Below, in pieces: positions 10,228-42,453 of a stretch of DNA of 64,000 nt; positions within the stretch are counted from its first letter, which is position 1; each line of letters begins with the position of its first letter. The stretch lies in assembly GCF_000952855.1 (NCBI RefSeq), contig NZ_JSVU01000001.1:310001-374000 (forward strand), read 5' to 3'. Below the pieces are notes generated by a model. That model had not been told where the DNA came from, did no database searches, and was given only the letters and a program-made list of their open reading frames with translations. The position numbers and the translations under genes are program-made. The stretch is from Aequorivita vladivostokensis. GTDB taxonomy: Bacteria; Bacteroidota; Bacteroidia; Flavobacteriales; Flavobacteriaceae.

Positions 10228-10301
<74 letters not shown>

Positions 10302-16276: not shown

Positions 16277-17014
16277 CTATGTTTGTCTACCTTTTAATTT
16301 GATTATGAAATCTGAAAGGTGACGTTCGGTTGAATCTAGGTTTTTATAATACAACTTCATATCTGTGTCTATATAATTTATTATTTCGCTTAAATCATAT
16401 ATAAGAGTTGATAAATGAACTATTGATTTCTGAAACTCTTTTTTACCGTTTTTGCTCTGAATCCTAACAATACTTGAGAGTTCTATTTTTTGAATTTCGT
16501 TATTTAAATTTTCATCTATAACGTTTGAAAATTTTACATTTTGCATTTGTTTATTTGTAAAAGAGCCAGAATAGATTGAACAAAATATAGCTTTGTCCGA
16601 TTCGGGGTATCTCTTGAACCAAGATACAGAACCAAAAATTGGGAGGTCTTCTTTGAGAAAAATTTCAGTTATTCGTTCGTCAATATGTTGATATGTGTTT
16701 CGAAGCTCTTTTGCTTTATTTATTTCAACAAATAATTTATTCCTAAGATCAATTTCGAAATGCTTTTCCAAAATGTTTCTGAAAATTACAGCATTATTAA
16801 CAATGGACCACGATTCTAAATAAATTTCAGGAAATGCATATTCTTCAACATTTGGGTTTTCTGTTAAATCTGATAATGCTCTGCATAACCTTATATAAGA
16901 TATCTCACATATTTCGACACTATATCTGATAGCATTTAAAATCAATACCAATTGAGGATTTATGAATGTCGGTGGATGTTTTAAGTAAGAATCAGATGGA
17001 ATTATTAATGACAT
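16277..17014 (-). CDS. Putative HEPN-domain protein, partner of the RloC-like ATPase
   Basis: A 245-residue protein without a named family that I know. Residues 20-125 look all-helical and contain RNTYQH at 105-110. This fits the HEPN ribonuclease signature Rx4-6H, with Asn right after the Arg as is usual. Residues 125-180 look beta-rich, and the end is helical. HEPN proteins are metal-independent RNases common in toxin and defence systems. The gene starts 2 bases after the stop of the RloC-like ATPase gene, so both are made from one message. I infer that the ATPase senses a trigger and that this protein is an effector or modulator. The HEPN call rests on the motif and helical pattern only. 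Confidence 0.5.
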   Translation of the reverse strand: MSLIIPSDSYLKHPPTFINPQLVLILNAIRYSVEICEISYIRLCRALSDLTENPNVEEYAFPEIYLESWSIVNNAVIFRNILEKHFEIDLRNKLFVEINKAKELRNTYQHIDERITEIFLKEDLPIFGSVSWFKRYPESDKAIFCSIYSGSFTNKQMQNVKFSNVIDENLNNEIQKIELSSIVRIQSKNGKKEFQKSIVHLSTLIYDLSEIINYIDTDMKLYYKNLDSTERHLSDFIIKLKGRQT

Positions 17015-17016
17015 AT

Positions 17017-19407
17017 TTATTCTTCTTCTGTAATTAATTCAACTCCAATGCTTTTTAACAAAGATTCATATTGATCTGTGTCTTTCTTGATTTTTTCTAA
17101 TATCAGCTTTGCTGCCTTGTGCATTTCGGGAACCTCTACTATAGTTGCTCCTCTCTCAAAAACACCGCTCAGATGTGAATATTCGTTATTTATCCTATCA
17201 GTCAAAACTGCAGGGATATCATCATCTCCAAAAAACTTTTTCATCTTAGTACTATCGTCTGAACTATCAGGATATTTATAATACAGGAATATTTCTAAAA
17301 ACTTTCTTGCGTTATTACCAAAATTGTAAAAGGTGGTGTAATTGTTATCATCAACCCTATCTATGGTAGAACATTTATATATCTGATTAAAAAGATAATT
17401 GAATTCAGTGACGTACTCCCAGATATAACTTGGCATTAAAGCAATAGTCGAATGGTCGTCAATACGTTCAAGTGTAAATTGTTCACATTTTGTTTTTGCT
17501 CTAGCTCCAGGTAACCTTTTTAAATATTTTAAAAAATTTAGATTATGTGTTGAAATAAACAACTGTTCAAATTCTTCCTCGCCAAAAATCTGGGTATTAA
17601 TTAATGAATAGATAAAGAAAATATGATTGCTGTCAAGACTTGAAATAGGGTCGTCAATCCAGATAATTGGTTTCTTTGTTTTAGTATCAATATCTTGAAG
17701 CTTTGCCATAAAATAACAAAAAGCAATAAGGCTCGTTTCACCTAAACTCAGATGATACGCTTTTTTATTATCCCGATGTACTTCAAATCTATATTGAACA
17801 TTTCCGGTTTCTTCATCGTCAAATTCAATTGCTTTAAGTGTAAGGAAATCGTGCCCGAAATAATTATTTAAATATTCGTTCACTTTATCGGCCCCCTTGC
17901 TTTCATCTTTTAATTCTCTTTGTTTACTAGCAATTTCAATTAAAATATCATCAACTTCTTTTTGTTTTGCGTTTTTCTTGTTTTTCTCTTGATCTAGTGA
18001 GACCTTAAGAGTACCAATGTTTGACATCTGCTTATCATATTCAATTAAATCTATAAAGTCATATATTTCTCGCAAACGAAGATTATCTTTTGCCTTCTTT
18101 TGCTCAGAACTAAGTTTTTCTGAATATTCATTTGAATCATTACGCAATTGGTTAAATTGACTTCGTAGAGAAATTATTTGCGAAGAACAATCTGTTGCCT
18201 CTTCGAATTTTTTCTCATTTAAAATATCTTCTTTTCGTTGGTTAAGTTGACTTTTAAGAGATTTAAGGGAAGATTCATAATCTTTCAAAGCTTTGTCGAA
18301 TAAGGCTGTTAGGTCATCAACTTCAGAATGAAATTTTGAATAAAAACTGGCACGTTTTATTCCACTCGTTGAAGAAATTAGACTTTCTTCAGTAGCAATT
18401 TTTTTTAAATGCGCAATTATTTCAGATTCTAACTTATCTGATTCTTCATCAAAATGCTTGTCTAGTTCTTTCCATCTTTCATCTCCAATTTCATTATCAC
18501 AAAATGCGCATTTTTCTAACTTATTTTTATGAAGATCCTTACCTTCTTTAACCCATCGGTTTAATACTGCATTTTTAAGAAGATCCTCTATTTTGTTAGA
18601 TTGTCCTATTTTTCGAGTAATCAGATCTTTACTGGTTTTTGTGATTGTATTAAAACTAAGTACTAATTCTGTTAATCCTGGAATAATATCTTTTGCTTTC
18701 TCATTTAATATAGTCTCTAAATTTATTTTTTCATCATCAGAAATAGGTTTAAAATCTTCTTGTTTTACGATTGCAATCTCATCTTTGAGTTTAGTAATTG
18801 TATAATTTTGATCTCCAAACTTTTGAGATTGATACTTTATTCCGTTTGGGTTATTAGTTGCCTTATTGCTGAGTTGTCCAGTCAAGCTGTCAATGGCAGT
18901 GTTATGAACTTTTACGGCTGTTCCATAAGCATTTTTTATATTTTCTAATTCAAGAAATAAACCAGTTTTATTATCCTCCTCATTTAATCCTAATTTACCA
19001 TTAAGTAGTTTAATTTCAGCTTCTATTTTTGCATTATCGCTTCCAAGGATTGCGAAAGGTTGAATATTCTCTTCTGGGTCAAAAATGAATTTTAAATTCT
19101 CTTTAATAAAATCTTCATTAAACACCCTAATTGTTTTATTGTGGGAATCAAAATTTTCTTGACTAATATCATTACTGCCTGAAATTGAAATACAGCACTC
19201 CGGGGTTTCATATTTATCAGAAATATAACCAGTTTCTAATGCCCTAATAATTCTTGATAAAGTTGTTTTTCCAGAATAATTTCTTCCATAAATGATATTT
19301 ATTTTTTTGAAATCTCTAATATTACCTTCTTTATCTTTTACTTCCGAGTCCCAATTGAAATTTTTAAAAACTGCAATATTTTTAATTGATTTGATTTTTT
19401 CAATCAT
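17017..19407 (-). CDS. RloC/PrrC-like AAA_13 ATPase, candidate anticodon nuclease
   Basis: A 796-residue ABC/SMC-type ATPase of the AAA_13 group. Walker A is YGRNYSGKTT (40-49), the ABC signature LSLGE is at 553-557, Walker B is IIWIDDPISSLD (581-592), and the H-loop is STHN (619-622). Between them lie long coiled coils with CAFC at 300-303, a CxxC zinc hook as in RloC. After the ATPase come about 160 residues with Arg701, Glu705 and His745 (ARKFLE, NEYSHL). This arrangement resembles the Arg-Glu-His nuclease triad of PrrC (R320/E324/H356). PrrC and RloC cleave tRNA anticodons when phage disarm a linked restriction enzyme. A type I system lies 2 kb away. Nuclease activity is inferred, not shown. 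Confidence 0.75.
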   Translation of the reverse strand: MIEKIKSIKNIAVFKNFNWDSEVKDKEGNIRDFKKINIIYGRNYSGKTTLSRIIRALETGYISDKYETPECCISISGSNDISQENFDSHNKTIRVFNEDFIKENLKFIFDPEENIQPFAILGSDNAKIEAEIKLLNGKLGLNEEDNKTGLFLELENIKNAYGTAVKVHNTAIDSLTGQLSNKATNNPNGIKYQSQKFGDQNYTITKLKDEIAIVKQEDFKPISDDEKINLETILNEKAKDIIPGLTELVLSFNTITKTSKDLITRKIGQSNKIEDLLKNAVLNRWVKEGKDLHKNKLEKCAFCDNEIGDERWKELDKHFDEESDKLESEIIAHLKKIATEESLISSTSGIKRASFYSKFHSEVDDLTALFDKALKDYESSLKSLKSQLNQRKEDILNEKKFEEATDCSSQIISLRSQFNQLRNDSNEYSEKLSSEQKKAKDNLRLREIYDFIDLIEYDKQMSNIGTLKVSLDQEKNKKNAKQKEVDDILIEIASKQRELKDESKGADKVNEYLNNYFGHDFLTLKAIEFDDEETGNVQYRFEVHRDNKKAYHLSLGETSLIAFCYFMAKLQDIDTKTKKPIIWIDDPISSLDSNHIFFIYSLINTQIFGEEEFEQLFISTHNLNFLKYLKRLPGARAKTKCEQFTLERIDDHSTIALMPSYIWEYVTEFNYLFNQIYKCSTIDRVDDNNYTTFYNFGNNARKFLEIFLYYKYPDSSDDSTKMKKFFGDDDIPAVLTDRINNEYSHLSGVFERGATIVEVPEMHKAAKLILEKIKKDTDQYESLLKSIGVELITEEE

Positions 19408-19583: not shown

Positions 19584-20762
19584 ATGAACCCGGAAATTAC
19601 CTACTTCGCCAAGACAAACTTCAGAGACCAGAGAGATTTATTCGGCATTAAACAGCCCGATAGAGCCTATCACACCTACATTATTGGAAAGACTGGTGCT
19701 GGAAAAACTAACTTATTAAAAACTAAAATTCTTCAAGACATTCATTTTAATCGGGGATTTTGTCTTTTTGATATTCACGGAGACTTAATTGAAGAAATAC
19801 AACATCGCCTTCCGCAGGGGAGAAAAGGTGATGTTGTATTTCTGAATGTCCCCGACCAAAATCTATCAATTGGATATAATCCTTTAAAACGGGTTTCCTA
19901 TGAAAAAAGATCCTTGGTAGCCAGCAGTATTCTTGAAACTTTTGAGCGTCTTTCATCGTCAAAATCGTGGGGTGCAAAATTGAGCCATATTCTAAGGTTT
20001 ATTTTGTTGACGTTGCTTGACCAAAAAAACGCTAATTTCTCAGATATTCTAAGAATTATTCGTGATAAAGAATACCGAAAAGAATGTATAAAACATATTG
20101 TAAATGAAGATGTAAAAGAGTTTTGGACTAAAGAGTTCTATCAATACACAAAATTCGATCTCGTTCCAATTTATAACAAGATAGGAGGGTTCTTAGCCCA
20201 TCCCGCCATACGAAGATTGTTGGTGGAGAATAAAGATTCATTGTCACTTCGGAAGATAATGGATGGAAAGAAAATCTTATTGATAAATTTGAGTAAAGGA
20301 GCAATTGGATCAGACAGTGCCTACCTTTTAGGCTCATTAATGCTCTCTTCAATTACATCAGCTTCTTTTAGTAGGATTGATACCTCAGAGAATGAGCGTG
20401 TTCCCTTTCATATTTATTTAGATGAGTTTCAAAATTATGTGAATCCTTCCTTGGTAAATATGTTATCAGAGTTGCGTAAGTTCAAAGTTACCCTCACACT
20501 TGCTCATCAATATTTGGATCAGCTTGATATAGACATCAAAAATGCTGTTTTAGGAAACGTTGGAACTCTTATTTCTTTCCGTCTTGGTGCGAGGGATGCG
20601 CAATATATGATGAAGGAACTTTTCAAAGAATATCAGCCAATTTATTCCATTGGGGATTATGTAAACCTTCCTAATTATGAAATCTATCTCAAACTAATGA
20701 TTGACGGAAAACCAAGCAAGCCTTTTTCTGCAACCACGATATGTTACGAAGATTATTTTTGA
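19584..20762 (+). CDS. TrwB/VirD4-like hexameric ATPase (soluble)
   Basis: A 392-residue P-loop NTPase of the TraG/TrwB-HerA class. Walker A is GKTGAGKT (35-42), Walker B is YLDEF (278-282) in FHIYLDEFQNYVNP. The Arg and Gln features of type IV coupling proteins (TLAHQYLDQL) follow. No membrane anchor is present, and it is shorter than a coupling protein. The main VirD4-type gene is at 34661. It begins a plus-strand run with two more genes (20835, 21204). Likely a DNA-translocating cargo protein of the element; its role in transfer or defence is open. It is divergent from the RloC-like operon (176-bp spacer). Confidence 0.75.
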   Translation: MNPEITYFAKTNFRDQRDLFGIKQPDRAYHTYIIGKTGAGKTNLLKTKILQDIHFNRGFCLFDIHGDLIEEIQHRLPQGRKGDVVFLNVPDQNLSIGYNPLKRVSYEKRSLVASSILETFERLSSSKSWGAKLSHILRFILLTLLDQKNANFSDILRIIRDKEYRKECIKHIVNEDVKEFWTKEFYQYTKFDLVPIYNKIGGFLAHPAIRRLLVENKDSLSLRKIMDGKKILLINLSKGAIGSDSAYLLGSLMLSSITSASFSRIDTSENERVPFHIYLDEFQNYVNPSLVNMLSELRKFKVTLTLAHQYLDQLDIDIKNAVLGNVGTLISFRLGARDAQYMMKELFKEYQPIYSIGDYVNLPNYEIYLKLMIDGKPSKPFSATTICYEDYF

Positions 20763-20834
20763 CCATCTTTTAATACTATAATCCGCAACTTCCAAAAACT
20801 ATACTGGCTATGAAACCTTTAAAAATAAATAGCT

Positions 20835-21191
20835 ATGAATACTACAGAAATAAAAAAACGGCTCACCGAAATGGCCAATAGTACGGATGAGAATATCCAA
20901 AAACAAGTTGCGGCAGAAGCTCTTGCTTATTCTTCTGATAACATTTGTGACTTCTTTAATGATTTACTGAAATACGGATGTGTAAGCGGAATGATAAGTA
21001 TGCTCATTTATTACTGCGATACCCACGAATTCTTTATGAAGCATTACGATGAAATTGAAGCACTGCGCTCAGAGTATAAAGATTCTACAGGTTTAGCTTT
21101 AAACCCCGAAGGAGATTTAATGAATTGGTATAGTTGGTTTGCTTTTGAAACGGTGGCGCGCAATCTCGCTGAATCTTTTGGAATCTATTAA
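20835..21191 (+). CDS. Small conserved mobile-element protein (DUF7222-like)
   Basis: A 118-residue soluble, mostly helical acidic protein. The segment FFNDLLKYGCVSGMISMLIYYCDTH is the kind of sequence I associate with DUF7222-type proteins of Bacteroidota mobile elements. The family name is from memory and not verified. Function unknown. Sits 72 bases after the ATPase gene and 12 bases before radC, on the same strand. Confidence 0.5.
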   Translation: MNTTEIKKRLTEMANSTDENIQKQVAAEALAYSSDNICDFFNDLLKYGCVSGMISMLIYYCDTHEFFMKHYDEIEALRSEYKDSTGLALNPEGDLMNWYSWFAFETVARNLAESFGIY

Positions 21192-21203
21192 ACGTGAGAT
21201 GTT

Positions 21204-21692
21204 ATGGAAGCGAAAAAAAGAGATTCGAAAAAAATGTATGAAGTTGGGATTGTGTATAAACGTCCTCTCTTTGATACGATGCCAGTGATAAAAAATTCTT
21301 GCGATGCCCATACGGTTTTGTCTGAACTTATAGATTATGATCTTGTTGACTTTAAAGAATATTTTTGGGTTCTATTACTTACCAAGAGTAATCGGGTTTT
21401 GGGTTTTTCACAAATAGGTATGGGAGATACGGCTGGTGTCGTAGTAAATGTTAAGGAGATTTTTCAGCTTGCATTAAAAACCAATGCCAGCGGGATTATA
21501 TTGTGCCATAACCATCCAAGTGGAAATCTTACAAGCTCAAAGCCAGATAGAACGTTAACGGAAAAAATTAAAATTGCCGGAAATATATTCTCCATTCAAT
21601 TAGTGGACCACATAATAATAACCCGAGAAGGATTTTATTCTCTTGCTGACAATGGGGATATTCTTGTGCCTGATAACACTCTGCCTTTTTAG
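21204..21692 (+). CDS. RadC-family JAB/MPN domain protein
   Basis: A 162-residue protein with a complete JAMM zinc site: the upstream Glu in KEIFQLAL, then HNHPSGNLTSSKPD (His102, His104, Asp115). This is the RadC (DUF2466) domain, without the N-terminal helix-hairpin-helix of full-length RadC. Such short RadC copies are typical of mobile elements and may act as anti-restriction or DNA-processing proteins, but their activity is not settled. It ends 12 bases before the convergent YgjP-like gene. Confidence 0.9.
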   Translation: MEAKKRDSKKMYEVGIVYKRPLFDTMPVIKNSCDAHTVLSELIDYDLVDFKEYFWVLLLTKSNRVLGFSQIGMGDTAGVVVNVKEIFQLALKTNASGIILCHNHPSGNLTSSKPDRTLTEKIKIAGNIFSIQLVDHIIITREGFYSLADNGDILVPDNTLPF

Positions 21693-21703: not shown

Positions 21704-22393
21704 TTATAAATCCATTCCTGCTCCGTGGATGTTAAGCCAAGATTTTCGGTGAAGATAGTCTGGCATAACTTTATCGAGCTCATTCCAAAAAGCTTCAGAA
21801 TGATTTGGATGGATAAGGTGAGTTAATTCGTGTGCAACTATATAATCTAAAATTGTTAAAGGTGCCATAATGGTTTTCCAATGAAAATTTACATTTCTTT
21901 TTTCAGAACAAGAACCCCATCGGTTTTGCAATTCCATTATCTTTATGTCATTTGGTTCAACATTTAATAGCTTCTTCCAATAATCAACTCTTTCATTGAT
22001 TTTTTTTCTTCCTTTCTCTTTGTAGAAATTTATGAATAATTCTTTTGCGTTAGAGAGGTCTTTCCTTCTCAATAAAAACTGACCATTTTTTAATTTCAGT
22101 GCGGACTCTTGCTTTTCAACAATCTCTAACTTATAGGTTCTACCAAGATAGAAGAAACCTTCGCCGCTTACAAATTCACGATATACCCTAGAAGTGTTAG
22201 CATCTTCCCATTCAGCTAAATGACTATAGATTCGGAATCTTTTTCTCTCCAAAATATTCTCAATTTCATCTTGTTGTAATTCAGATGGTACGAGCACAGA
22301 AATACTACCATCTCGCTCAATGTATATGCTGGATGTTTTTCTCTTACTCTTTTTAAGGGAGTATTCTATGTCTTTGTATTTATGAGTTGTCAT
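21704..22393 (-). CDS. YgjP-like M48-type metallopeptidase (DUF45)
   Basis: A 229-residue protein ending in the zincin motif HELTHLIHPNHSEAFW (His188, Glu189, His192, with His198 a likely further ligand). This is the YgjP/SprT-like fold. The N-terminal part is the DUF45 beta-rich region, and NRWGSCSEKRNVNFHW matches the conserved block before the active site. The start overlaps the end of hsdR by 14 bases, so it is the last gene of the restriction operon. This family is often found beside hsdR; what it does there is not known. Confidence 0.88.
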   Translation of the reverse strand: MTTHKYKDIEYSLKKSKRKTSSIYIERDGSISVLVPSELQQDEIENILERKRFRIYSHLAEWEDANTSRVYREFVSGEGFFYLGRTYKLEIVEKQESALKLKNGQFLLRRKDLSNAKELFINFYKEKGRKKINERVDYWKKLLNVEPNDIKIMELQNRWGSCSEKRNVNFHWKTIMAPLTILDYIVAHELTHLIHPNHSEAFWNELDKVMPDYLHRKSWLNIHGAGMDL

Positions 22394-25300
22394 TACTTAA
22401 AGTTTGATGTCTTTTCTTTGCCAGTGCTAAAATTTCTGAAACAATTTTATCTGTTTTGTTTATAACAGGGGTGAGGTTAAGTTCTCCTGCAAGAACTAAA
22501 ATGATGTCTTCAATTTGCCCACGCAGTTTTTCAACTTCATCTTTCTTTTTCCAAAAACGATTAATCTTGATTTCTTTTTTTATTAATGGAAGTATTTCAG
22601 AAATTAGAGGTTTTAGTTGGTGCATAATCTCCAAAGATGCATCCTTGCCATATGCAATATCAATTATTAGGTCGTAAAAAGGAGCTTCCTCGACAGAAAT
22701 GCCTTCAATTGAACCTTCTTTTCTTCCTTCTTCTAATTCTTCTCTTAAGCCTTTTAAATTATCTAAAATAGCATCCCAATCTTCCCAATGAGATTGAATT
22801 ATTGTATCCAACTTTTCGCTCATTGATTTATAAAACACTGGATCATCAGCTAAGTTAATCTTAATGTGTTTTCGGGTGGCGTGCTCCATTTCGCTTGCCT
22901 TTGCTTTTACGCTTTTATTCTTTTCAAGTTCTTCTATAAAATTTGAAGAGAATAGTTCAGTTGGTGGAATCTTTGGATTAATTCCCAAGCTAATTAAGTG
23001 CTCATTAACCAACCGTTTTACCTTATTTCCTGCACCTGAAATATCGAGGGTAGTATCTTTATATCGCTCTTTAATTTTACTCAGAATATACCCAAATCTT
23101 TTTGTTGGGATTTTATAAGGGGTGGCCGCTTCATTAGGAAGTATAACATCCATACTTTCCTGGAAAGTTTTATAAAAAGTTGTAAAATTCGCTCTTATCT
23201 TAACATCCGCCATTAAGTCAATGGCGTTTTCTAATACATTGTATTCCTCAACTTTATTTTTAATTTTCTGATTTACAAATTCCTCAATGTGCTTGACGTT
23301 ATTGTCGCTAAATAATTGAAGCAGTCTTCTATATCTATGCTCAAGAATAGGAACTTCAGATTCTATATCTTTCATTCCCTGCATAACTTCCTCAAAAGCT
23401 TCACCGCCATAAATGGAAAGTGCGTCTTTAAGGTTATTGGCAAGCCCAATATAATCTACAATATATCCACGATTTTTATCAGGATATATTCGATTAACCC
23501 GTGCTATTGCCTGTAATAAATTATGTTCTTTCAACTTTTTATCCAGATACATAATTTGTTCGATTGGTGCATCAAAACCTGTTAGAAGCATATCGCAAAC
23601 AACAAGAAAAGCGACTCCAGAATTTGGTTCTTCATAGTTAATTTTCTTTTTAAAATTATCTACGGCGTTCATTGCCTTTGCCTCTTTTCGAGCTTGAGTA
23701 ATTACTGCATCTTCATTAGTGTCATCACTAGAAACGATAACTGCGGACTTAAGGAATTTAAGCTTCCGTAATAAATTTGGTTCATAATCGTCATCAATTT
23801 CTTTTTCTTGAATGACTTTTTCAAGTGCTATATCGATATATTTTTTATAGCGAACTGCGGCAAGTTTTGAAGAGCATACAACTTGAGCTTTAAAGTTATT
23901 TGGAAGAATGTTGGTTACATAGTGATGTACCATATCTTCGGCTATTACTTTTATTCGTTCTTCGGCTTCTAGAATATCGCCATAGGTTCCATATTTCTTT
24001 TTTATGGCTAATAACTCTTCTTCGGTTCTTTCTTTGAAAAGGTCTTCAAATTTTTTATCAAAAACTGACTTTTCGTTAAGAGCAGTATCTGCCGTCTTTC
24101 CTTCGTATAAGATTTGAACTGTAGCACCATCATCAACAGCATCCTGTAATTTGTATTTATCAATGTATTCTCCAAAACGATCTACAGTTTTGGTTTTATG
24201 CCTTTCAGTAATTAAGGGTGTTCCAGTAAAGGCTATTTTCGTAGAATGAGGAAATGCAGCGAACATATTATCGCCAAGATCAGAATTAACAGTTCTATGA
24301 CTTTCATCCTGCAAGATTAAAATTCTATCGGAATTATTTACGACTCCAAACTCTTTGTAGGTTGGAATAGGCTCTGCAACCTTACCTAAAACATAATTTG
24401 GCATTTGAGAATTATCACGTTCTTGAAATTTCTGTAACATCACCATCGTGGTGTTTGAATTTTCAGTAGAAAGTTTAGGTTTTAATTCATCAATATTATT
24501 AACGTAATCTACCTTTTCATCGGTATATCTTGCGGTATTTCCTAGCTGTTCTTCAAGGTCTGTCCTGTCATTAATGATAATAACCTTATAATCACTAAGT
24601 GCTGGAACCGTTCTTATTTTTTTAATAAGAAAGACCATTGTGAGTGATTTCCCTGAACCTTGTGTATGCCAAATTACCCCTGATCGTTCTTTAGGGGTTT
24701 TACCTGTAAGCAACCGTTCTTTTATTTTTTGAACAGCTCTAAATTGTTGGTAACGACTTATAATTTTCACCTCTTTACCTTCTCCTACTTCCATAAAAAG
24801 AATGAAGTTTTGTATGATGTCCAGTAAATTCTCAGGTGATAGCATTCCTTGAATGAGCCGCTCCTGCATTCGCTCCTTTCCTAATGGCGGAGTATAGTTT
24901 TTAAGGGTTTCAGGATATATATCTTTCCAGTTTAGGTAATATTGATCAGTTGATGAGATTGAACCGTAGGTGGCGTTTTCTCCGTAGCTCGCAATACATA
25001 ACTGATTGAAGTGGAATAACTTTTCCTCGCCTTCTTTTAAACCTGCTTCTTGGGTTTCAATACGTTGATTGCTATATCTTCTAAGTTGCTTATAGGCTTC
25101 GGTTAAGGGATTGGCTGTATATTCATTCTGGTCTTTACATTCCACAACAACTAAAGGTAGGCCATTAACAAAAAGAACAAGGTCAGGAATGATAAACCCT
25201 TTCGGTGTTCCTGGGGTGTCGATTCTAAATTGATTAATTGCTACAAAGTCATTTTGTGATGGTTGGTCAAAATCAATGAATTTAACTTTTGCGAATTCTT

Positions 25301-25634
25301 CTCCAGTTATTTCATTTTTATCTACGTTTGTTCCAGTAACAAGTAGTTCGTAAACTTCTTTATTGGCCTCTAAAAGGTCGTTAGATGAATGTTTTGTAAT
25401 CTCATCAAATAAATCCTCTAGTTGTCGGTTAGTGAGCCACTCTTCCCCATTTTCAGTAACATTGATAGAACGAACACTTTGTAAAAAGAGCTCTTTTAAA
25501 ACCACCTCTCTGAAAGATGTTCTATGGCTCTTTGAAGGGTCTTTGGGTATTCCAAAGCCTTGATCTATAATTTTCCATCCCAATTGTTGTAATTGGTCTA
25601 AAAAAGGTTTTTCTACAAAGTGATATTCAGACAT
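22380..25634 (-). CDS. hsdR: Type I restriction enzyme, translocase/nuclease subunit HsdR
   Basis: HsdR of 1084 residues, the motor and cutting subunit of a type I system. The N-terminal PD-(D/E)xK nuclease site is at Asp151, Glu165 and Lys167 (IIPDLVLF, VVVECKD). Superfamily 2 helicase motifs follow: Walker A TQGSGKS (325-330), DESH box (443-446), TGTPL motif III, and ARVNRIYPDK motif VI region. The C-terminal helical part is for complex assembly. It cleaves DNA after ATP-driven translocation when bound to HsdM/HsdS at unmethylated sites. It lies 5 bases after the DUF262 gene, in one operon with hsdM and hsdS. Confidence 0.96.
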   Translation of the reverse strand: MSEYHFVEKPFLDQLQQLGWKIIDQGFGIPKDPSKSHRTSFREVVLKELFLQSVRSINVTENGEEWLTNRQLEDLFDEITKHSSNDLLEANKEVYELLVTGTNVDKNEITGEEFAKVKFIDFDQPSQNDFVAINQFRIDTPGTPKGFIIPDLVLFVNGLPLVVVECKDQNEYTANPLTEAYKQLRRYSNQRIETQEAGLKEGEEKLFHFNQLCIASYGENATYGSISSTDQYYLNWKDIYPETLKNYTPPLGKERMQERLIQGMLSPENLLDIIQNFILFMEVGEGKEVKIISRYQQFRAVQKIKERLLTGKTPKERSGVIWHTQGSGKSLTMVFLIKKIRTVPALSDYKVIIINDRTDLEEQLGNTARYTDEKVDYVNNIDELKPKLSTENSNTTMVMLQKFQERDNSQMPNYVLGKVAEPIPTYKEFGVVNNSDRILILQDESHRTVNSDLGDNMFAAFPHSTKIAFTGTPLITERHKTKTVDRFGEYIDKYKLQDAVDDGATVQILYEGKTADTALNEKSVFDKKFEDLFKERTEEELLAIKKKYGTYGDILEAEERIKVIAEDMVHHYVTNILPNNFKAQVVCSSKLAAVRYKKYIDIALEKVIQEKEIDDDYEPNLLRKLKFLKSAVIVSSDDTNEDAVITQARKEAKAMNAVDNFKKKINYEEPNSGVAFLVVCDMLLTGFDAPIEQIMYLDKKLKEHNLLQAIARVNRIYPDKNRGYIVDYIGLANNLKDALSIYGGEAFEEVMQGMKDIESEVPILEHRYRRLLQLFSDNNVKHIEEFVNQKIKNKVEEYNVLENAIDLMADVKIRANFTTFYKTFQESMDVILPNEAATPYKIPTKRFGYILSKIKERYKDTTLDISGAGNKVKRLVNEHLISLGINPKIPPTELFSSNFIEELEKNKSVKAKASEMEHATRKHIKINLADDPVFYKSMSEKLDTIIQSHWEDWDAILDNLKGLREELEEGRKEGSIEGISVEEAPFYDLIIDIAYGKDASLEIMHQLKPLISEILPLIKKEIKINRFWKKKDEVEKLRGQIEDIILVLAGELNLTPVINKTDKIVSEILALAKKRHQTLSNDNS

Positions 25635-25639
25635 AGTAA

Positions 25640-27490
25640 TTAGTTTTTGATGCTACACAATTCTTCAATTTGTTGATAAAGCAACGTGGTTCGAGCTATC
25701 ATAAATTCTTCGAATTGATCTTTTTTAAGCATTTCTATCATTTCCTTTGAAATGAACTGCGAGTCCATTATTTCAAGAAATTCATCGTATTTGTTTGCTT
25801 CTATATACTGGTTTTCAAAATCAGTTATATAATCGCTCGGTAAGCGTGAACTAATGCGTTTATTGTTTGTCTCATTTGTTATGAGCGCAATGTTTGCTAT
25901 GTTATTAATAATATCATCATATTTATGCTTCTCATATTTACTTGAAATATTTTTCCCTAATTCTGATTTCTTCGGGAAAATATGATGCTCTTCTAACTTG
26001 TTTTCATTTGTTACATCTTTCAATGGTGTAAAGCCATTATAAAAGTCTTTCGCATTTTTTGATTTTAGCAAAAGCAACATTCCTCTATAAATTTGTTGGC
26101 TTCTATTAGAATAGTGCGCATCGAATAAGTTAAGATTGTCGATGGAGTTATTTTCCAAATACGTTAAATTTCTAGTATTATCGTTAATCATTCGCTTTAG
26201 CTTTTGAGGCAGTGTTGTTCTGTCATCAACTAGCAAATCATAATCTTTTGCAATACGCTCACTTTGTGCACCCGGATATCTGTTTTTAAGCAAGGTGTTC
26301 CAAAAATAAGACTTGAGAAATTCATTTTGCTTTACATCAATAGTGTCGAAATGAGAAATAGCTCCAGCTAAAAATTTAAGAATAGGATTGTATCGCCTTA
26401 GTTCGGTTACTTCCACATTAAAATTCTGGTCCATATACTGAATTACCTTAGTAAATTTGTCGTGAAGTAATTTAGTATTCTGCATTAACTGTTCAGTGTT
26501 CAATTTTAATATTTCACTTCCCTTAAATTTCTTGTTGAGAATAATCATTGAAAGTTGAAGCATATCGCTGTCCTCAACAGGTAGTGTTACCGTATCTAAA
26601 TCGAGGGCTTCAATATTTACGAAATAATCTTTATCTACACGTCCATTAAATTTAATGATTTTGTAGTAGGAGCGAAGGTCAAAAAAGCCTTGGTCAAATT
26701 TCCGATAGGTTTTGGCAACCATAATATCAAAAATAGAAAGCTTGGTGTTTTTCGTATTGATACGTTCAAAAACCTCCAATACTTGTTCCAAACTTCCCTT
26801 TTGCTCGATGTCGTAAACCTTTCTTGATAAAACTGTGTTTTCCAGTTCTTTTAGTTTTTGACTGTATTCGTATTGAAACTGAAACATTTTAGCCCTTTCC
26901 TCGGCATTATCTTTATTGAACCAATCTTCTACTATCTTGGACTCAAAATGAAAGGCGTGTTTTATTTTTACAAATCTTGTGTTGAATTTTTTGAACAGTT
27001 CTTCTTCAGAAAGTTCTTTTAGCATAAATGGTTCTTGAGGATTTTCCTCGTTTTCAATTCTTTCATCATCAAAAACCCATTTTAATTCGGCATCATCACC
27101 TGTGTAATGTGAATCCCAATAGAGATTTAATTTCTCTTTCTTTTTACTATTGTTCCCTTTAAAAATTGGTTTTTTGGTAAAAGCCAAGGTTAATGCGGTG
27201 GTACGTTGTTGTCCGTCCAAAAGATAAACCACATCTTCAGGGCGATCTTCAGGGATTTTAATATCCTTTACTCTTGCTCCAACTGCGCGCCGTGCAAGTT
27301 CGTCACCACCTTTCCAGATAAGAATAGAACTAATGGTGTAGCCACGATAAAGACTATCAATCAACAAACGTACTTGGTTTTTATCCCAAACGAAAGGCCT
27401 TTGAAATTCAGGTAGCCAAATTTCTTCTTTTCGGGATAAATCGATAAGCGACTTGATATTTACTTCAGTATTTGTAATATTTGGTTTCAT
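25640..27490 (-). CDS. DUF262/DUF1524 (GmrSD-type) protein with HNH site
   Basis: A 616-residue fusion of an N-terminal DUF262 domain and a C-terminal DUF1524-like HNH nuclease. DUF262 shows its conserved start LPEFQRPFVWD (26-36) and the DGQQRTTAL motif (92-100), a ParB-like nucleotide-hydrolysing site. The HNH part is LEEHHIFPKK (499-508) with Asn in NNIANIALIT. This is the architecture of GmrSD, BrxU and SspE, which restrict phage DNA, often with modified bases. It is embedded between hsdS (4 bases) and hsdR (5 bases), so it is part of the restriction operon and could cover phages whose modified DNA escapes HsdR (inference). Confidence 0.85.
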   Translation of the reverse strand: MKPNITNTEVNIKSLIDLSRKEEIWLPEFQRPFVWDKNQVRLLIDSLYRGYTISSILIWKGGDELARRAVGARVKDIKIPEDRPEDVVYLLDGQQRTTALTLAFTKKPIFKGNNSKKKEKLNLYWDSHYTGDDAELKWVFDDERIENEENPQEPFMLKELSEEELFKKFNTRFVKIKHAFHFESKIVEDWFNKDNAEERAKMFQFQYEYSQKLKELENTVLSRKVYDIEQKGSLEQVLEVFERINTKNTKLSIFDIMVAKTYRKFDQGFFDLRSYYKIIKFNGRVDKDYFVNIEALDLDTVTLPVEDSDMLQLSMIILNKKFKGSEILKLNTEQLMQNTKLLHDKFTKVIQYMDQNFNVEVTELRRYNPILKFLAGAISHFDTIDVKQNEFLKSYFWNTLLKNRYPGAQSERIAKDYDLLVDDRTTLPQKLKRMINDNTRNLTYLENNSIDNLNLFDAHYSNRSQQIYRGMLLLLKSKNAKDFYNGFTPLKDVTNENKLEEHHIFPKKSELGKNISSKYEKHKYDDIINNIANIALITNETNNKRISSRLPSDYITDFENQYIEANKYDEFLEIMDSQFISKEMIEMLKKDQFEEFMIARTTLLYQQIEELCSIKN

Positions 27491-27494
27491 TTTT

Positions 27495-28727
27495 TTATGC
27501 CTTAACTTCTACTTTCCCATTTAATAAATCTTGCATTAGACCCTTTTTGATGTTTTGGTGTTTTTCTAGATTTTTTAGTTCTTGTTCTATTAATTTATTA
27601 ATTGAAGTAAGTTTATCTGACATTAACTTTTGTTCTTTTAAACTTGGTTTAAATACCTTAAATGACTTTATTTTATCTAAGCCCAAATCTGGAACTCCAA
27701 TACTTTGGACCTCTATTTTTATTTGTTTTTGTAAATGGTTAGATTTAATATATTCCATTAAAAAAGCTGGTAGTATTTTATCCTCATTCACTCTAATCAT
27801 ACTTGCACTATGAAGAATGCTAAATTCTGGCATCCACGGTTCTACAAGACACACTTTACCCAAACCAGCTCCTATTCTGGTAAAAACTAAATCTCCATTT
27901 TTTAAATCTGTTTTTTTTCGGTTCTTTAAATGAGCTTTTAGAGATATATACTTGCACTTTTCAAATCTAATTTTTTCGTTTTTATCAAAATCTTTGGGTG
28001 AAATAATTGGTATTCCATCATCATAATAAGTAGGTGTAAAGTGGTCTCTATCTGTTATTTTTAATGTTACATTTTCAAAATTTTCTATCTCCCATTCAAC
28101 AGGGATCATTCCTAATATGCTTTCCTTATATAGCTCAGGGGCGTCTTTATATTTGGGCCTTAAGAGTCTTGTTTTAATATCAATACCTTTTGAAAATAAG
28201 TCTTGTACGATTCCTTTTTTTATAATTTTGTATTTGTTGATGCTTACTTCGGTGATTCTAATAACTTTATCAATTGTATCAAATATTTCTGCAATTTTTT
28301 TTTGTATCTCTATATTATTTGGATATTTTATCTTGAAGATTTTGTACAAATCCTTTGGAACGTGTGGAACTCCTGTCCCAGTTCTTTGATTCTGAATCCA
28401 AGGAAATTTACTATCAAGATAATGATATAAATACTCGTTGTTTATTTCACCCTTAACTGTTAACTTTGAAAAAGTCGAACCAACCACGCCATTAAACCCT
28501 AGTGCTACTAAACCTGACCTTTCGCCATCCCAAAGCATTAATATGTCGTCCTCTTTGCAAGTTATACTCCCAATAGGGTTTGCCCAAGTGAGAGTATTGC
28601 CTCCAACTGCTTCAGTATTTATAAGCGGTAAAAAATTATCTTTATTAAAGTCAACCTGCTCTGAAATTTTACCTTTTTTAAAGTCTACTAATTTACCTAT
28701 CGGCTCTTCTATCCAATTCTTATTCAT
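27495..28727 (-). CDS. hsdS: Type I restriction specificity subunit HsdS
   Basis: A 410-residue specificity subunit with two target-recognition domains, at about 5-125 and 205-355. Two conserved helical spacers follow them, EIQKKIAEIFDTIDKVIRITE and the C-terminal EQKLMSDKLTSINKLIEQELK, which set the gap in the bipartite DNA site. Both repeats end in similar text (KKGIVQDLFSKG, KKGLMQDLLNGK). The start overlaps hsdM by 8 bases. The recognition sequence cannot be read from the gene. Confidence 0.93.
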   Translation of the reverse strand: MNKNWIEEPIGKLVDFKKGKISEQVDFNKDNFLPLINTEAVGGNTLTWANPIGSITCKEDDILMLWDGERSGLVALGFNGVVGSTFSKLTVKGEINNEYLYHYLDSKFPWIQNQRTGTGVPHVPKDLYKIFKIKYPNNIEIQKKIAEIFDTIDKVIRITEVSINKYKIIKKGIVQDLFSKGIDIKTRLLRPKYKDAPELYKESILGMIPVEWEIENFENVTLKITDRDHFTPTYYDDGIPIISPKDFDKNEKIRFEKCKYISLKAHLKNRKKTDLKNGDLVFTRIGAGLGKVCLVEPWMPEFSILHSASMIRVNEDKILPAFLMEYIKSNHLQKQIKIEVQSIGVPDLGLDKIKSFKVFKPSLKEQKLMSDKLTSINKLIEQELKNLEKHQNIKKGLMQDLLNGKVEVKA

Positions 28728-31338
28728 AGCCCAATTGAATTAGGTATTCGTTTAAATTTCTTGCTTCTGCATCCCTAGAAGTCAAAATTTCTTTTATTGT
28801 AATTCTATACTTTGAATATAAGTTTTGTATGGCTTTCACATAATCATTTATAAAAGCTTTTACGTATGCCTTGTATTGATTCTGTAGATCATTTTGCCAA
28901 CGTTCTAAGATAAGTTGCTTTGCTTCCTTTTCAGAGATTTTAGAACGGGCTGCATCAACGAGCTCATCCTTTTTGGCTTCTACGGCTTTTATATCTGCTT
29001 TTAAATCACGAAGTTCCTTGGTAAATTCATTGTGGTTTTTTAATTGTCCATCAATTTCCAGCTTTTTATTTTCAGCATTTTTTAGTTGGTTAGATTCTAG
29101 AGTTTCAATTTTTTGTTGCAGGTTTTTTATTTCATTAGCATCAGCATTATCTGATTTCAACAGGATTTTCAATGCAGCTTTAAAATCCTTTATTTCTTTC
29201 TTAAACTTTCTGATGTCCGCAGCCTGAGTTTTTAGTTTTGCTTTCAAGTTTTTAACGGTTTCTTTTGACAAGATTCCACTTTCTTCATCCTCTTCATAAT
29301 CTTCTTGTTCGGCAGCATCAAAAAGCGTTTCCAATTCTGCAATACGGTCTTTGTCGTTTTCAAATTGTTCCAATACTTCAGGAAACTGACTTTGTAAAAT
29401 ATCTTGTTCGGGAATTAATTCTGGTCCCCAACCGCTGGCAGCAACACTCTTAAAATCAGTTTTAAGCGAATCCCAAAAACCTGCAAAAGCTCCACGAATT
29501 TCGTGCACATCAAGTGCCTTAAATTTTTCTAAATCAGTTACGATAGTTGGCAATACCTTATTCCGTAATAATGAAGGGTTGTTGGTGCCAGGAAGATTTT
29601 CAAAATCTTTTTTATGGGTATTCCACCATTTATCGATATTTGATTCGTATTCGGCATACTTCTTTGCAACCTCCTCACTTTTTTCAATGAAATCTTTAAT
29701 AGCATCTTTGCTATCTATGTGTTCTGAAAACGCTAAGAATTCCGCATCAGAGAGTTCAAAGATTTTTTTATTGATATCAAAAAGTGTTTTTGATTGGTCA
29801 TTTAGGATATCAACTTCTTCTTTAGGAATTCCGCCATTAAGGTGAGCTTTTACGTTTTGAGGTTCTTCGTCAGGAGAATTGTCTACATATCTGCGAATGT
29901 TTAAGTTATAGTCTTCCTCCTTTATTTCATCAACCGTTACCATTCTGCTGTATTTTGGAATGGTTGCCTTGGTGTCGTAGGTGTTGGTAATTTTTTCAAT
30001 ATCCTCAGGGCGAAGTTTATTCTGGTTTTTACCTTCTTTATATTCAGCATCCGCATTGATGAAGAGAATTTCTTTTCGATCTTTGGTTTCTTTTTTGTTA
30101 AAAACCAAAATACAAGCTGGTATTCCTGTTCCGTAAAATAAACCTGAGGGCATACCAATAACTGCTTCTAGAATTCCGCGACTAATAAATTTAGCTCTGC
30201 ATTCCTTCTCGTCACCACCTCTAAAGAGAACACCGTGTGGCATTACTACTGCCATTTTACCGTTGTTCTTTAAAACACTTACCATATGTTGCACAAACAT
30301 AAGGTCTGCTTTCTTTCCTGATTCTGGCATAAATGTGTGAAAACGCTCAGGAAATTTCATTTCTTTTTTGGAGTAATTCTGTGAGAACGGCGGATTGGCA
30401 ATTACCCTGTCAAAGGTCATTAACTTACCGTCTTCAATATGTTCAGGCTTTTTAATAGTATCTTCATTACGAATATCAGCATTCCTAATTCCGTGAAGAA
30501 TCATATTCATTTTACAGATTGCCCAAGTAGTTCCACTATCTTCTTGTCCAAAAATTGAAAGGTCTCGCGAATTACCACCATTTTCGGCTATATAATCTTT
30601 TGCTTGAATTAACATACCCCCCGAACCAACTGCCGGATCATATATACTCATTCCTTGTTTCGGAGCTAATATTCGTGTCATTAATCGTACAACTTCTGAA
30701 GGTGTATAGAATTCCCCGCCCTTTTTTCCAGCACTATCCGCAAAATATTTAATAAGGAATTCATAGGCCGCACCCAGGAGGTCGGGAAATTCAAAATCTT
30801 CATCCTTAAGAGGGATGTCATTAAATTTTTCAATAAATGAAACCCATTTGGCATCATCAATTGTTTTCTTTCCTACCTTACGATTGTAGTTGATGTTTTT
30901 AAGTACATCCTCAAAAACTTCGGGTTTAGCATCTTCAATAGCGTGTAAGGCTTTGTTAAGTCCTGAACCAACATCTTTTTTTAGATGGAGAATACCTTTG
31001 AAGTTTTTCTTTTCTTTACTTTTTTCTTGTGAAAGTTTTGCTTTTTCTTCCTCTGTTAATGTCCATCGTGCTATTGGAGGAACGAAAAAGTCGTATTTGG
31101 CAGGATTTGAAAGCTGACGTTCAATAAGGTCAGAACGCATATTTTTTGCTTCATACTCTTCTTTAAGTTTTTTGCGCTCTTCAACAAATTTATCGTTTGC
31201 CCGTTTTAAAAAGAGCATCCCAAAAATGAACTCCTTATACTCAGAGGCATCCATTTTTCCACGTAGTTCGTCACAAGCTTTAAGTAAGAGAGATTCAAGT
31301 TTGGAGAGCGTTAGTTTTTGTTTTTTTTGAAAGGTCAT
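28720..31338 (-). CDS. hsdM: Type I restriction N6-adenine methyltransferase HsdM
   Basis: An 872-residue modification subunit. The AdoMet motif is YDPAVGSGGMLIQ (233-245), and the catalytic motif is NPPF (315-318) of the N6-adenine class. The N-terminal helical HsdM domain is present. Family members are usually about 500-700 residues. Here the extra length is a charged coiled-coil tail from about 600 to 830 (for example IRKFKKEIKDFKAALKILL), followed by a helical end. It methylates the host site with HsdS. It is the first gene of the five-gene operon, with a good promoter at 31382-31413. Confidence 0.95.
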   Translation of the reverse strand: MTFQKKQKLTLSKLESLLLKACDELRGKMDASEYKEFIFGMLFLKRANDKFVEERKKLKEEYEAKNMRSDLIERQLSNPAKYDFFVPPIARWTLTEEEKAKLSQEKSKEKKNFKGILHLKKDVGSGLNKALHAIEDAKPEVFEDVLKNINYNRKVGKKTIDDAKWVSFIEKFNDIPLKDEDFEFPDLLGAAYEFLIKYFADSAGKKGGEFYTPSEVVRLMTRILAPKQGMSIYDPAVGSGGMLIQAKDYIAENGGNSRDLSIFGQEDSGTTWAICKMNMILHGIRNADIRNEDTIKKPEHIEDGKLMTFDRVIANPPFSQNYSKKEMKFPERFHTFMPESGKKADLMFVQHMVSVLKNNGKMAVVMPHGVLFRGGDEKECRAKFISRGILEAVIGMPSGLFYGTGIPACILVFNKKETKDRKEILFINADAEYKEGKNQNKLRPEDIEKITNTYDTKATIPKYSRMVTVDEIKEEDYNLNIRRYVDNSPDEEPQNVKAHLNGGIPKEEVDILNDQSKTLFDINKKIFELSDAEFLAFSEHIDSKDAIKDFIEKSEEVAKKYAEYESNIDKWWNTHKKDFENLPGTNNPSLLRNKVLPTIVTDLEKFKALDVHEIRGAFAGFWDSLKTDFKSVAASGWGPELIPEQDILQSQFPEVLEQFENDKDRIAELETLFDAAEQEDYEEDEESGILSKETVKNLKAKLKTQAADIRKFKKEIKDFKAALKILLKSDNADANEIKNLQQKIETLESNQLKNAENKKLEIDGQLKNHNEFTKELRDLKADIKAVEAKKDELVDAARSKISEKEAKQLILERWQNDLQNQYKAYVKAFINDYVKAIQNLYSKYRITIKEILTSRDAEARNLNEYLIQLGYE

Positions 31339-31592: not shown

Positions 31593-31799
31593 ATGAAAAA
31601 AGATAAGACAGAAATGCAATTTACTGCTGGAATTTCTTACCAAGAACATATTAAGAGGGCTGATAAGGTTTATGAAACTATCGTTAAGCCTCAAGTTATT
31701 GCTGAGAAAAAATTAGAAAAGAGCGCAAAAGGAAATTCTCATAAAATAGAACTTACCCCTGCTCAAAAAGCGCTTTCGCATTGTCCAAGCCCTATTTAA
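31593..31799 (+). CDS. Small antitoxin-like protein upstream of a zeta toxin
   Basis: A 68-residue charged, helical protein (SYQEHIKRADKVYETIVKPQV) with no DNA-binding motif evident. It overlaps the start of the zeta-toxin gene by 19 bases, the arrangement expected of an antitoxin. I do not recognise its family; the antitoxin role is inferred from position and size. Confidence 0.6.
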   Translation: MKKDKTEMQFTAGISYQEHIKRADKVYETIVKPQVIAEKKLEKSAKGNSHKIELTPAQKALSHCPSPI

Positions 31800-32404
31800 T
31801 AATAGTTGCTGGATGTAATGGTTCTGGGAAATCTACTTTCTCCCAGTCATATGTGGAAAACATAGTCCCCTTTGATTACGATAAGAGATTTATGGAAATT
31901 TACAATGCTATGCCTGATAGTGAATTTCGAGAGGAGATAGCTAAAAACAAAACAACAGAAGAATTTAAAAGCTCCATAAATGGAGCTTTTTCTAATAAAG
32001 AAAATTTCTGTTATGAAACAAATTTTGACTCGCACCCTCTAGCCTGGGCTGAAAAAGCAAAGGAACTAGGCTACCGCTTAGAGCTTCATTTTTATTGCTT
32101 AAACTCTATAGATTTGGCAAAGAAGCGCGTTGCTCAACGGACTCGCTATAAGGGGCATTTTGTAAGCAACAATACAATAGAAATTAAGTGGAAAGAGGGG
32201 TATAAAAATCTGAATCTTTATTTTGATTTTTTTGATTTCGTAATGCTTATTGATAATTCTTCTGACGAACATAGACTTCTCAATTTGTTTTCATTAGAGA
32301 AACAGAAGAATGGAGAATTTAAAGTTGCCCAAAATAGTGAGTGGATTCCTAAATACGCTAAAAGACGTTATCCTCGTATTTTTGAGATTTTAAAAAAGAG
32401 TTAG
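31781..32404 (+). CDS. Zeta-toxin family kinase
   Basis: A 207-residue P-loop kinase with Walker A GCNGSGKST (11-19). ETNFDSH (near 79-85) fits the zeta-toxin substrate-binding motif, and RVAQRTRYKGHFV fits the Arg-rich lid. Zeta toxins phosphorylate UDP-N-acetylglucosamine, or related nucleotides in divergent members. The only start I see before Walker A is TTG at 31781, inside the antitoxin gene. This suggests weak, coupled translation of the toxin. Followed by a bidirectional hairpin. Confidence 0.82.
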   Translation: MSKPYLIIVAGCNGSGKSTFSQSYVENIVPFDYDKRFMEIYNAMPDSEFREEIAKNKTTEEFKSSINGAFSNKENFCYETNFDSHPLAWAEKAKELGYRLELHFYCLNSIDLAKKRVAQRTRYKGHFVSNNTIEIKWKEGYKNLNLYFDFFDFVMLIDNSSDEHRLLNLFSLEKQKNGEFKVAQNSEWIPKYAKRRYPRIFEILKKS

Positions 32405-41051: not shown

Positions 41052-42260
41052 TTAAAATTTTAAAACTACATCCAAGGCCTCATCTTCTTCATTATGGATG
41101 AAATTAGATTGATAATTAACAGTGGTGGTTATTGAAGAGTGCCTGTAGAGCTTTTGAAGCATCTGTATTGGTATTTTAGCACCTGAAATATAACCAAAGC
41201 TATGCCGGGCAATATGCATTGAAATACTTTTATCAATCTTGGCTAATGTAGCCACTTTACTTAAATGCCGGTTAAACTTTCTTGTGGCTGTTTGAATTTT
41301 ACGTGTTACATCTTTGGAATCATTAAGTTTTGCCTTCTTTAATTCAGGAAAAATGAAATCATTCTTTTTTATATCAGATGTTTTATAACCATCTAGAATT
41401 TGAAGTGCTTTCTCAGGCATTTTAAGGCTTACTAGCTTCTTATTCTTACTCATACGGTAATTGAGTCGTCCATCAGTAATATCCCCCCATTTAAGGCGTA
41501 ATACGTCGCCTACACGTATGCCCGCGAGATAAAAAGAGAAAAGCCATACGTTCAGTGCGTGTTTCTTTGCTAGGCTTTCGAGGTTTAATGATTCGAGTTT
41601 GATAATTTCATCCTTATTGAGACCAACCTTATCGCTCTCAGGAATGCGTATTGTTACTTTCCCTCTTCCAAACGGATAAATATCGCGGTCAATTACTTCG
41701 TCACGAATAGCAATATTAAAGGTAGTACGGATAAGAATAAGGTAGTTCACAACAGTTCTTTCTGAAAGCTTTTTATCTCCTAATAGGTAACTTTTAAATC
41801 TATATAAAAACGACTCGGTAATATTTTCAAACGGTAAGGTTGTAGTTTTCGAAAATTCTTTAAGAACTTTAATTCGACCTTCTTCAGTCTTTGCTTGATG
41901 ATGTTGATTTCTTCTTATTAAGGTTTGAATATGTTTTTGAGCCAAATCAAAAAAATTAGTATCACCTCCCTTTTGAATTCGTTGTTTGATATAGGAAACT
42001 GAAGTTGATTTAGAATCACTCTCTACTTCAAGGACTGTGTCACTGATTTTAGCCATTTTAGATAACAAGAGATTATTCAATCGTCTAGAGTTAGGATGAT
42101 TCTTCTTAACAATGCGCTTTTGGTCATCCCATTGGTTCTCGGCGATATTAAATCCAGTATAGATGTAGGATGATTTTCTGTTTTTTGTCACTCTAATAGC
42201 TAAGGGAAAAAGTCCCTGGCTATTCTTCTTTTTTCGTAATATTGCAGTAACTGTACTCAT
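41052..42260 (-). CDS. Tyrosine integrase of the element
   Basis: A 402-residue integrase with the arm-binding N-terminal domain (1-90), SAM-like domain (100-205), and catalytic domain. Catalytic residues Arg249 (AGIRVGDVL), His349 and Arg352 (HIARHSFG), His374 (LYRHSS) and Tyr383 (VNYQS) are intact. Type typical of Bacteroidota elements. It lies 150 bases inside attR, so it is the best candidate for the enzyme that inserted into tRNA-Met. Two GTACAAC sites at 42287-42305 precede the start, and the same pair is at the other end. Confidence 0.92.
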   Translation of the reverse strand: MSTVTAILRKKKNSQGLFPLAIRVTKNRKSSYIYTGFNIAENQWDDQKRIVKKNHPNSRRLNNLLLSKMAKISDTVLEVESDSKSTSVSYIKQRIQKGGDTNFFDLAQKHIQTLIRRNQHHQAKTEEGRIKVLKEFSKTTTLPFENITESFLYRFKSYLLGDKKLSERTVVNYLILIRTTFNIAIRDEVIDRDIYPFGRGKVTIRIPESDKVGLNKDEIIKLESLNLESLAKKHALNVWLFSFYLAGIRVGDVLRLKWGDITDGRLNYRMSKNKKLVSLKMPEKALQILDGYKTSDIKKNDFIFPELKKAKLNDSKDVTRKIQTATRKFNRHLSKVATLAKIDKSISMHIARHSFGYISGAKIPIQMLQKLYRHSSITTTVNYQSNFIHNEEDEALDVVLKF

Positions 42261-42410: not shown

Positions 42411-42453
42411 CTCATAACCCGAAGGTCACAGGTTCGAGTCCTGTTCCCGCTAC
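42411..42453. repeat. attR, tRNA-Met 3' fragment
   Basis: CTCATAACCCGAAGGTCAC followed by T-arm ACAGG-TTCGAGT-CCTGT and acceptor CCCGCTAC. This is the host's original tRNA 3' part, cut off from its 5' half by the insertion. Its T-stem pair A:T is shared by the two downstream fragments, not by the intact tRNA. Confidence 0.9.

Follow-up and report, generated by a model that had tools for sequence, protein, structure and literature searches.

A probable self-contained RloC anticodon nuclease with an independent HEPN-like neighbour gene on a mobile element of Aequorivita vladivostokensis

Two genes standing two bases apart in Aequorivita vladivostokensis raise the question of whether an RloC-like ATPase and a separate HEPN-motif protein can form a two-part defence system. 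Both lie in a stretch of 64,000 nucleotides (contig NZ_JSVU01000001.1, positions 310,001 to 374,000; hereafter the window), which is part of a 3.27-Mb genome in 25 contigs. The initial annotation proposed such a two-part variant, with the HEPN protein acting either as the nuclease of a sensor ATPase or as a modulator of the ATPase. With good confidence, we favour a different reading: a self-contained RloC anticodon nuclease followed by an independent HEPN-like neighbour gene, probably co-transcribed, on an element integrated at tRNA-Met that also carries type I restriction. The argument turns on the following features of the window.

17017..19407, minus strand: ATP-binding cassette (ABC) ATPase of RloC type with a predicted C-terminal HEPN-type anticodon-nuclease domain, 796 residues (Pfam AAA_13, PADLOC PDC-S06, motifs, alignment)
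18499..18510, minus strand: zinc-hook codons C300-A-F-C303 of the ATPase (motif pattern; cysteines invariant in 10/10 aligned rows)
17173..17307, minus strand: codons of ATPase residues 701-745, with the R701-x3-E705-x39-H745 triad and HEPN-type R738-x6-H745 (alignment, published RloC motif)
17020..17487, minus strand: modelled C-terminal domain of the ATPase, residues 641-796, a HEPN-like helical bundle
16277..17014, minus strand: 245-residue member of a rare, so far undescribed family; conserved R-x4-H-x2-E-R-I (R105, H110) and a putative HEPN-type active site (seven full-length relatives, motif in 8/8)

The open reading frame (ORF) listing and the translations confirm both genes at the minus-strand coordinates given by the initial annotation, two bases apart, and its motifs hold as well: CAFC at residues 300-303 and R701, E705 and H745 in the ATPase, RNTYQH at residues 105-110 in the small protein. 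The ATPase matches Pfam AAA_13 over residues 26-770 (457 bits) and PADLOC PDC-S06 (PDLC04887) over residues 1-790 (1024.7 bits), compared to 48 bits for the PADLOC model of PrrC. Going by PADLOC naming, we take PDC-S06 to be a single-gene candidate family; the small protein matches no PADLOC model. ABC motifs are present as Walker A (GRNYSGKT at 41), signature (LSLGE, 553), Walker B/D-loop (DDPISSLD, 585) and linchpin His (STHN, 619).

RloC proteins are recognised by ABC motifs resembling those of PrrC, by a coiled-coil insert that bears a CX2C zinc hook and by a length of 658-897 residues, and have a C-terminal triad R-x3-E-x36-52-H, often with Ser before the His (Davidov and Kaufmann, 2008, PMC2610378, in the sections available to us). 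The window ATPase shares the ABC head, the hook (C300/C303, in an insert between the ATPase halves), the triad (R701-x3-E705-x39-S744-H745, Ser preceding His) and, at 796 residues, the length range. When it is aligned with nine relatives at 36-58% identity, C300, C303, R701, E705, R738, N741, E742, S744 and H745 are invariant across all ten proteins. A pattern test on 19 proteins of the ATPase family found Walker A, CxxC, signature and Walker B in every one, the strict triad with Ser in 17/19 and STH followed by N or S in 15/19. Motifs and alignment thus bear out the initial description of an RloC-like ATPase with a zinc hook and an intact triad. PDC-S06 is among the PADLOC candidates whose proteins are assigned to differently named systems in DefenseFinder (PMC11811056, in the part available); for the protein described here, that other name would be RloC.

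With a model of the C-terminal domain as query, the 13 best structure-comparison rows are all HEPN-type proteins, and the modelled domain resembles HEPN toxins; in Foldseek, no row reaches E 0.001. We regard the HEPN-like fold of this domain as supported with moderate strength. Searches of PDB sequences returned no relative of the ATPase family at E 0.001 with the profile and none at E 0.1 with the single protein. The apparent HEPN type of the ATPase's own C-terminal domain is a point that the initial annotation did not make. Judged by its sequence, the window ATPase is a complete single-chain RloC, SbcC/Rad50-like, rather than a sensor that lacks a nuclease.

The small gene follows directly on the same strand, its ATG separated from the ATPase stop codon by two bases (TAA-AT-ATG). 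Its protein has seven full-length relatives, found in G134 (loci L002/L004), a Paludibacteraceae genome (L003), G367 (L023), G755 (L045), G948 (L104), G1052 (L105) and a viral contig (L053), which are 16-39% identical to the window member. A match in G1110 (E 7.6e-4) and a 58-residue match in G948 (L052/L106) are left out of this set. Five of seven genomes of the phylum sample, with matches at E 2e-4 to 0.009, were likewise dropped as relatives; a larger profile kept only L010, at E 0.0015. At L106:2609-3244, sequence matching an N-terminal part of the small family continues into a protein with apparent TPR repeats, a possible fusion or remnant.

The HEPN superfamily is marked by an R-x4-6-H motif, usually with a polar residue after the R (Anantharaman et al., 2013, PMC3710099, in the sections available). 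The small family carries this motif in conserved form: ten columns of the eight-member alignment are invariant (R30, W69, R105, H110, E113, R114, I115, G128, W132 and L179), and the residue following R105 is N in six members, D in one and G in one. Because R-x4-6-H appears in 49% of 5000 shuffles of the small protein (R[ND]xxxH in 2.9%), its occurrence in a single sequence is near chance; its invariance in 8/8 members at 16-39% identity is, by contrast, real evidence for a HEPN-type site. The initial annotation had made conservation of R105 and H110 a test of its proposal, and both prove invariant. Together with E113, R114 and I115, these residues support a HEPN-type active site in the small protein.

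A real, if lesser, possibility is a helical small protein without catalytic activity, in which R-x4-H has a different function, for instance in binding RNA or protein. The window protein matches nothing in Pfam, PADLOC or NCBIfam, and five members of the family match nothing in PADLOC. Pfam searches with family members gave sub-threshold matches only, namely Cpf1 REC2 for L104 (E 0.0076) and HEPN_Apea for L023 (E 0.17); the latter concerns one of five members scanned, and three further members show no HEPN match. The structural model is poor (predicted local distance difference test score, pLDDT, 45.6, from an input of two sequence rows): it has three long helices, the motif ending the third, then a strand pair past the motif and a last long helix. 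With this model, Foldseek and VIA returned rows headed by designed bundles and FAT domains, along with other helical proteins, and we conclude nothing from these matches. Against the non-catalytic explanation, R, H and E-R-I are invariant in 8/8 and N or D follows R in 7/8, as a HEPN active site would show by the motif description in the available sections of PMC3710099. The HEPN label of the initial annotation accordingly stands as far as the conserved motif goes, and does not extend to a profile match at threshold with any described HEPN family.

PHROGs gave best values of only E 0.018 and 0.046 for the small protein, and PDB sequences gave no result for the family. Among plasmids and phages the small protein has no relative, two of its relatives likewise have none among plasmids, and viral contigs gave no result with the single protein or with profile A1. 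The small family and the RloC C-terminal domain showed no link when their profiles were compared, and a common origin of their motifs is accordingly unsupported. The family is undescribed in the libraries searched (Pfam, PADLOC, NCBIfam) and in searches of the open-licence PMC literature.

Whether the two genes belong together depends on how they are distributed, and the initial annotation had itself named a lack of co-occurrence as refuting its proposal. No second pairing emerged in the flanks examined: an ATPase of the RloC kind is absent around the seven full-length small-protein relatives (0/7), and the small gene is absent beside 46 other distinct full-length ATPases (0/46), only the window's own of the 47 having it. 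The eight small-family loci (seven full-length, one fragment) span 10 to 19.5 kb each and contain no ATPase of this kind. The 47 ATPases are ORFs of at least 600 residues with a loose triad pattern (46/47; L076 is without it), distant AAA_13 proteins included, and their flanks range from nothing at contig ends to about 8 kb, so some partners may have gone unseen. The count omits ATPase loci that lack an ORF of this kind (L024, L034/L042, L035/L043, L039, L041, L046, L056, L062 and others), some of them broken or cut; they show no small-family match either.

The small gene occurs in 2/299 genomes of the family sample and the ATPase (E 1e-20) in 6/299; in the phylum sample, the small family is found at E 0.01 in 7/395, two of them strong, and the ATPase in 9/395. 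At these thresholds both genes are present only in the window's own genome (G000), in either sample. Of four genomes with the small gene that were searched whole for the ATPase, three (G755, G367 and that of L003) gave no match at E 0.001. On plasmids, 154/72,556 records hold an ATPase relative and none a small-protein relative. Since several chromosomes carry the small family but no RloC, the function of this family appears to be independent of RloC, and since it is found alone elsewhere, the pair probably does not amount to a new two-part system; as a recurring system we reject it, there being no second case in the flanks examined. On present evidence the small family is a neighbour and not half of a system. 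Most likely, the small protein acts in its own right, either as an RNase of HEPN type or by binding RNA, and its gene would have landed behind rloC on a mobile element and would share the rloC message; we infer both this independence and the co-transcription.

Three observations weigh against this reading. The two-base spacing leaves a functional link possible. G134 carries the small gene deep inside its contig 1 and, towards the beginning of a different contig, an ATPase relative with a weaker match (29%, E 4e-18). And a different small R-x4-H protein stands 201 bases behind a distant ATPase relative in L021. Of these, the spacing and the L021 arrangement would suit a true two-gene defence module, in which the small HEPN-like protein binds RloC to silence, activate or help it, by analogy with the restriction enzyme in the case of PrrC; so would the invariant R-x4-H-x2-E-R-I and the sharing of one element with a restriction system. 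We nevertheless consider such a module unlikely, given the absence of a second pair, the chromosomes that have the small family without RloC, and the full motifs that RloC keeps where the small gene is missing. A variant to which we give still less credence is a double-HEPN module: a new HEPN family recruited behind RloC and translationally coupled to it, which would pair with the RloC HEPN domain as a control or cut a second RNA when RloC fires.

That nuclease activity belongs to the separate HEPN protein while the ATPase serves only as a sensor, as gene order, spacing and the conserved R-x4-H of the small protein might suggest, is scarcely credible and the idea fails, because the ATPase has a complete anticodon-nuclease domain of its own, with the triad and R-x6-H intact in 10/10 aligned ATPases and a modelled resemblance to HEPN toxins, and because Ala at any triad residue abolished the nuclease of G. 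kaustophilus RloC (PMC2610378). The two-part variant of the initial annotation is therefore not supported; RloC is itself published as a HEPN protein (PMC3710099).

For the neighbourhoods of relatives described in what follows, hsd names and the names of neighbours in small-family loci, except TIR, come from a reading of translations. Three small-family members (L003, L045, L105) sit among ordinary chromosomal genes, the locus L002/L004 has a transporter and a toxin-antitoxin pair nearby, L023 adjoins a resolvase and L053 lies on a viral contig. At L104:5959-7640, the small-protein relative is followed 116 bases on by a TIR-domain gene on the same strand (Pfam TIR_2, E 2e-6).

On the ATPase side, the nearest relative (L018, 59%) overlaps hsdS by four bases, with an unrelated 169-residue gene six bases behind it and hsdR later. 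The position between hsdS and hsdR is the classical place of PrrC, and L018 is alike in this respect. At L018:1326-12891, the RloC relative between hsdS and hsdR is followed by genes for proteins of 169 and 372 residues and an AlbA_2/HATPase gene. Three RloC relatives at 40-47% identity (L031, L032, L033) lie on phage-like contigs that lack the small gene, a placement consistent with carriage of RloC-type genes by prophages. The protein at L021:10294-10924, behind the distant RloC-like ATPase (28%), has 142 residues and an RNYITH motif, is unrelated to the small family and has no Pfam match.

Compared to known systems, the ATPase shares with PrrC, the E. coli anticodon nuclease, the ABC head and the C-terminal nuclease triad (PMC2610378 and PMC3710099, as far as available), and differs in its zinc hook (CAFC 300-303), strict PrrC being without a zinc-hook insert, and in its far lower score with the PADLOC PrrC model than with PDC-S06. 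It differs from published RloC in standing two bases before an unrelated small gene, and its anticodon nuclease is a prediction. A location beside type I restriction genes, which the window ATPase has, is described as rare for RloC in the available sections of PMC2610378. PrrC, RloC and APECO1_4465 are listed by Anantharaman et al. (2013, PMC3710099) as HEPN domains fused to ABC ATPases, with locations in restriction operons and in prophages, and the relatives of the window ATPase likewise occur in restriction loci and on phage-like contigs; a separate HEPN-like gene directly behind RloC is not described in the sections of that paper available to us.

The mechanism we propose for RloC is transferred to the window protein from what has been published for other proteins of the RloC and PrrC types. 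The ATPase head and zinc hook would keep the nuclease silent until DNA damage, or loss of the type I restriction enzyme during phage infection, frees it. The freed nuclease would then excise the wobble nucleotide of a tRNA and halt translation, and the infected cell would give few phages. The small protein probably cleaves RNA as HEPN RNases do, or binds RNA; it would respond to a trigger of its own while being carried on the same message. RNase activity of both proteins and the trigger are, in this scheme, predicted.

Both genes lie in a stretch bounded by a direct repeat.

10259..10277, plus strand: left copy of a 19-bp direct repeat, lying within tRNA-Met (10228-10301), likely attachment site
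42411..42429, plus strand: right copy of the 19-bp repeat, adjoining a tyrosine integrase gene (41052-42260)
22380..31338, minus strand: type I restriction-modification genes, M 28720-31338, S 27495-28727, GmrSD_N/DUF262 25640-27490, R 22380-25634 (PADLOC for M, S and R; Pfam GmrSD_N)

Between the repeats GC content is 28-35% in 2-kb steps, versus 37-45% outside, and the stretch holds three tyrosine integrase genes in all, a relaxase, a coupling protein, the type I restriction system and the rloC pair. Window positions 10259-42429 thus look like a mobilizable defence element in tRNA-Met. Within the restriction genes, the GmrSD_N (DUF262) gene stands between S and R, and a gene for a YgjP-like metallopeptidase (21704-22393) lies behind R. 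A Zeta-toxin-like P-loop kinase gene at 31781-32404 (Pfam PF06414, E 6.7e-7) adjoins them. Beside rloC, a divergent trio at 19584-21692 encodes a coupling-protein-like ATPase (Pfam TrwB_AAD_bind; PADLOC mad8, E 3e-14), a DUF7222 protein and a RadC-like protein.

The RloC family is known, and the window ATPase is a further member of it; the small family is undescribed in the libraries searched. As a clear case on a mobile element where a type I restriction system is also present, the window RloC offers a setting in which the idea that RloC depends on restriction alleviation could be examined. A two-part RloC is unsupported on present evidence, and saying so keeps a false system out of catalogues. 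The small protein represents a rare family, as yet without a name, in which R-x4-H-x2-E-R-I is invariant. Its members occur by themselves, ahead of a TIR gene in one genome and, in another case, on a viral contig, and the gene may act in defence or as a toxin independently of any partner.
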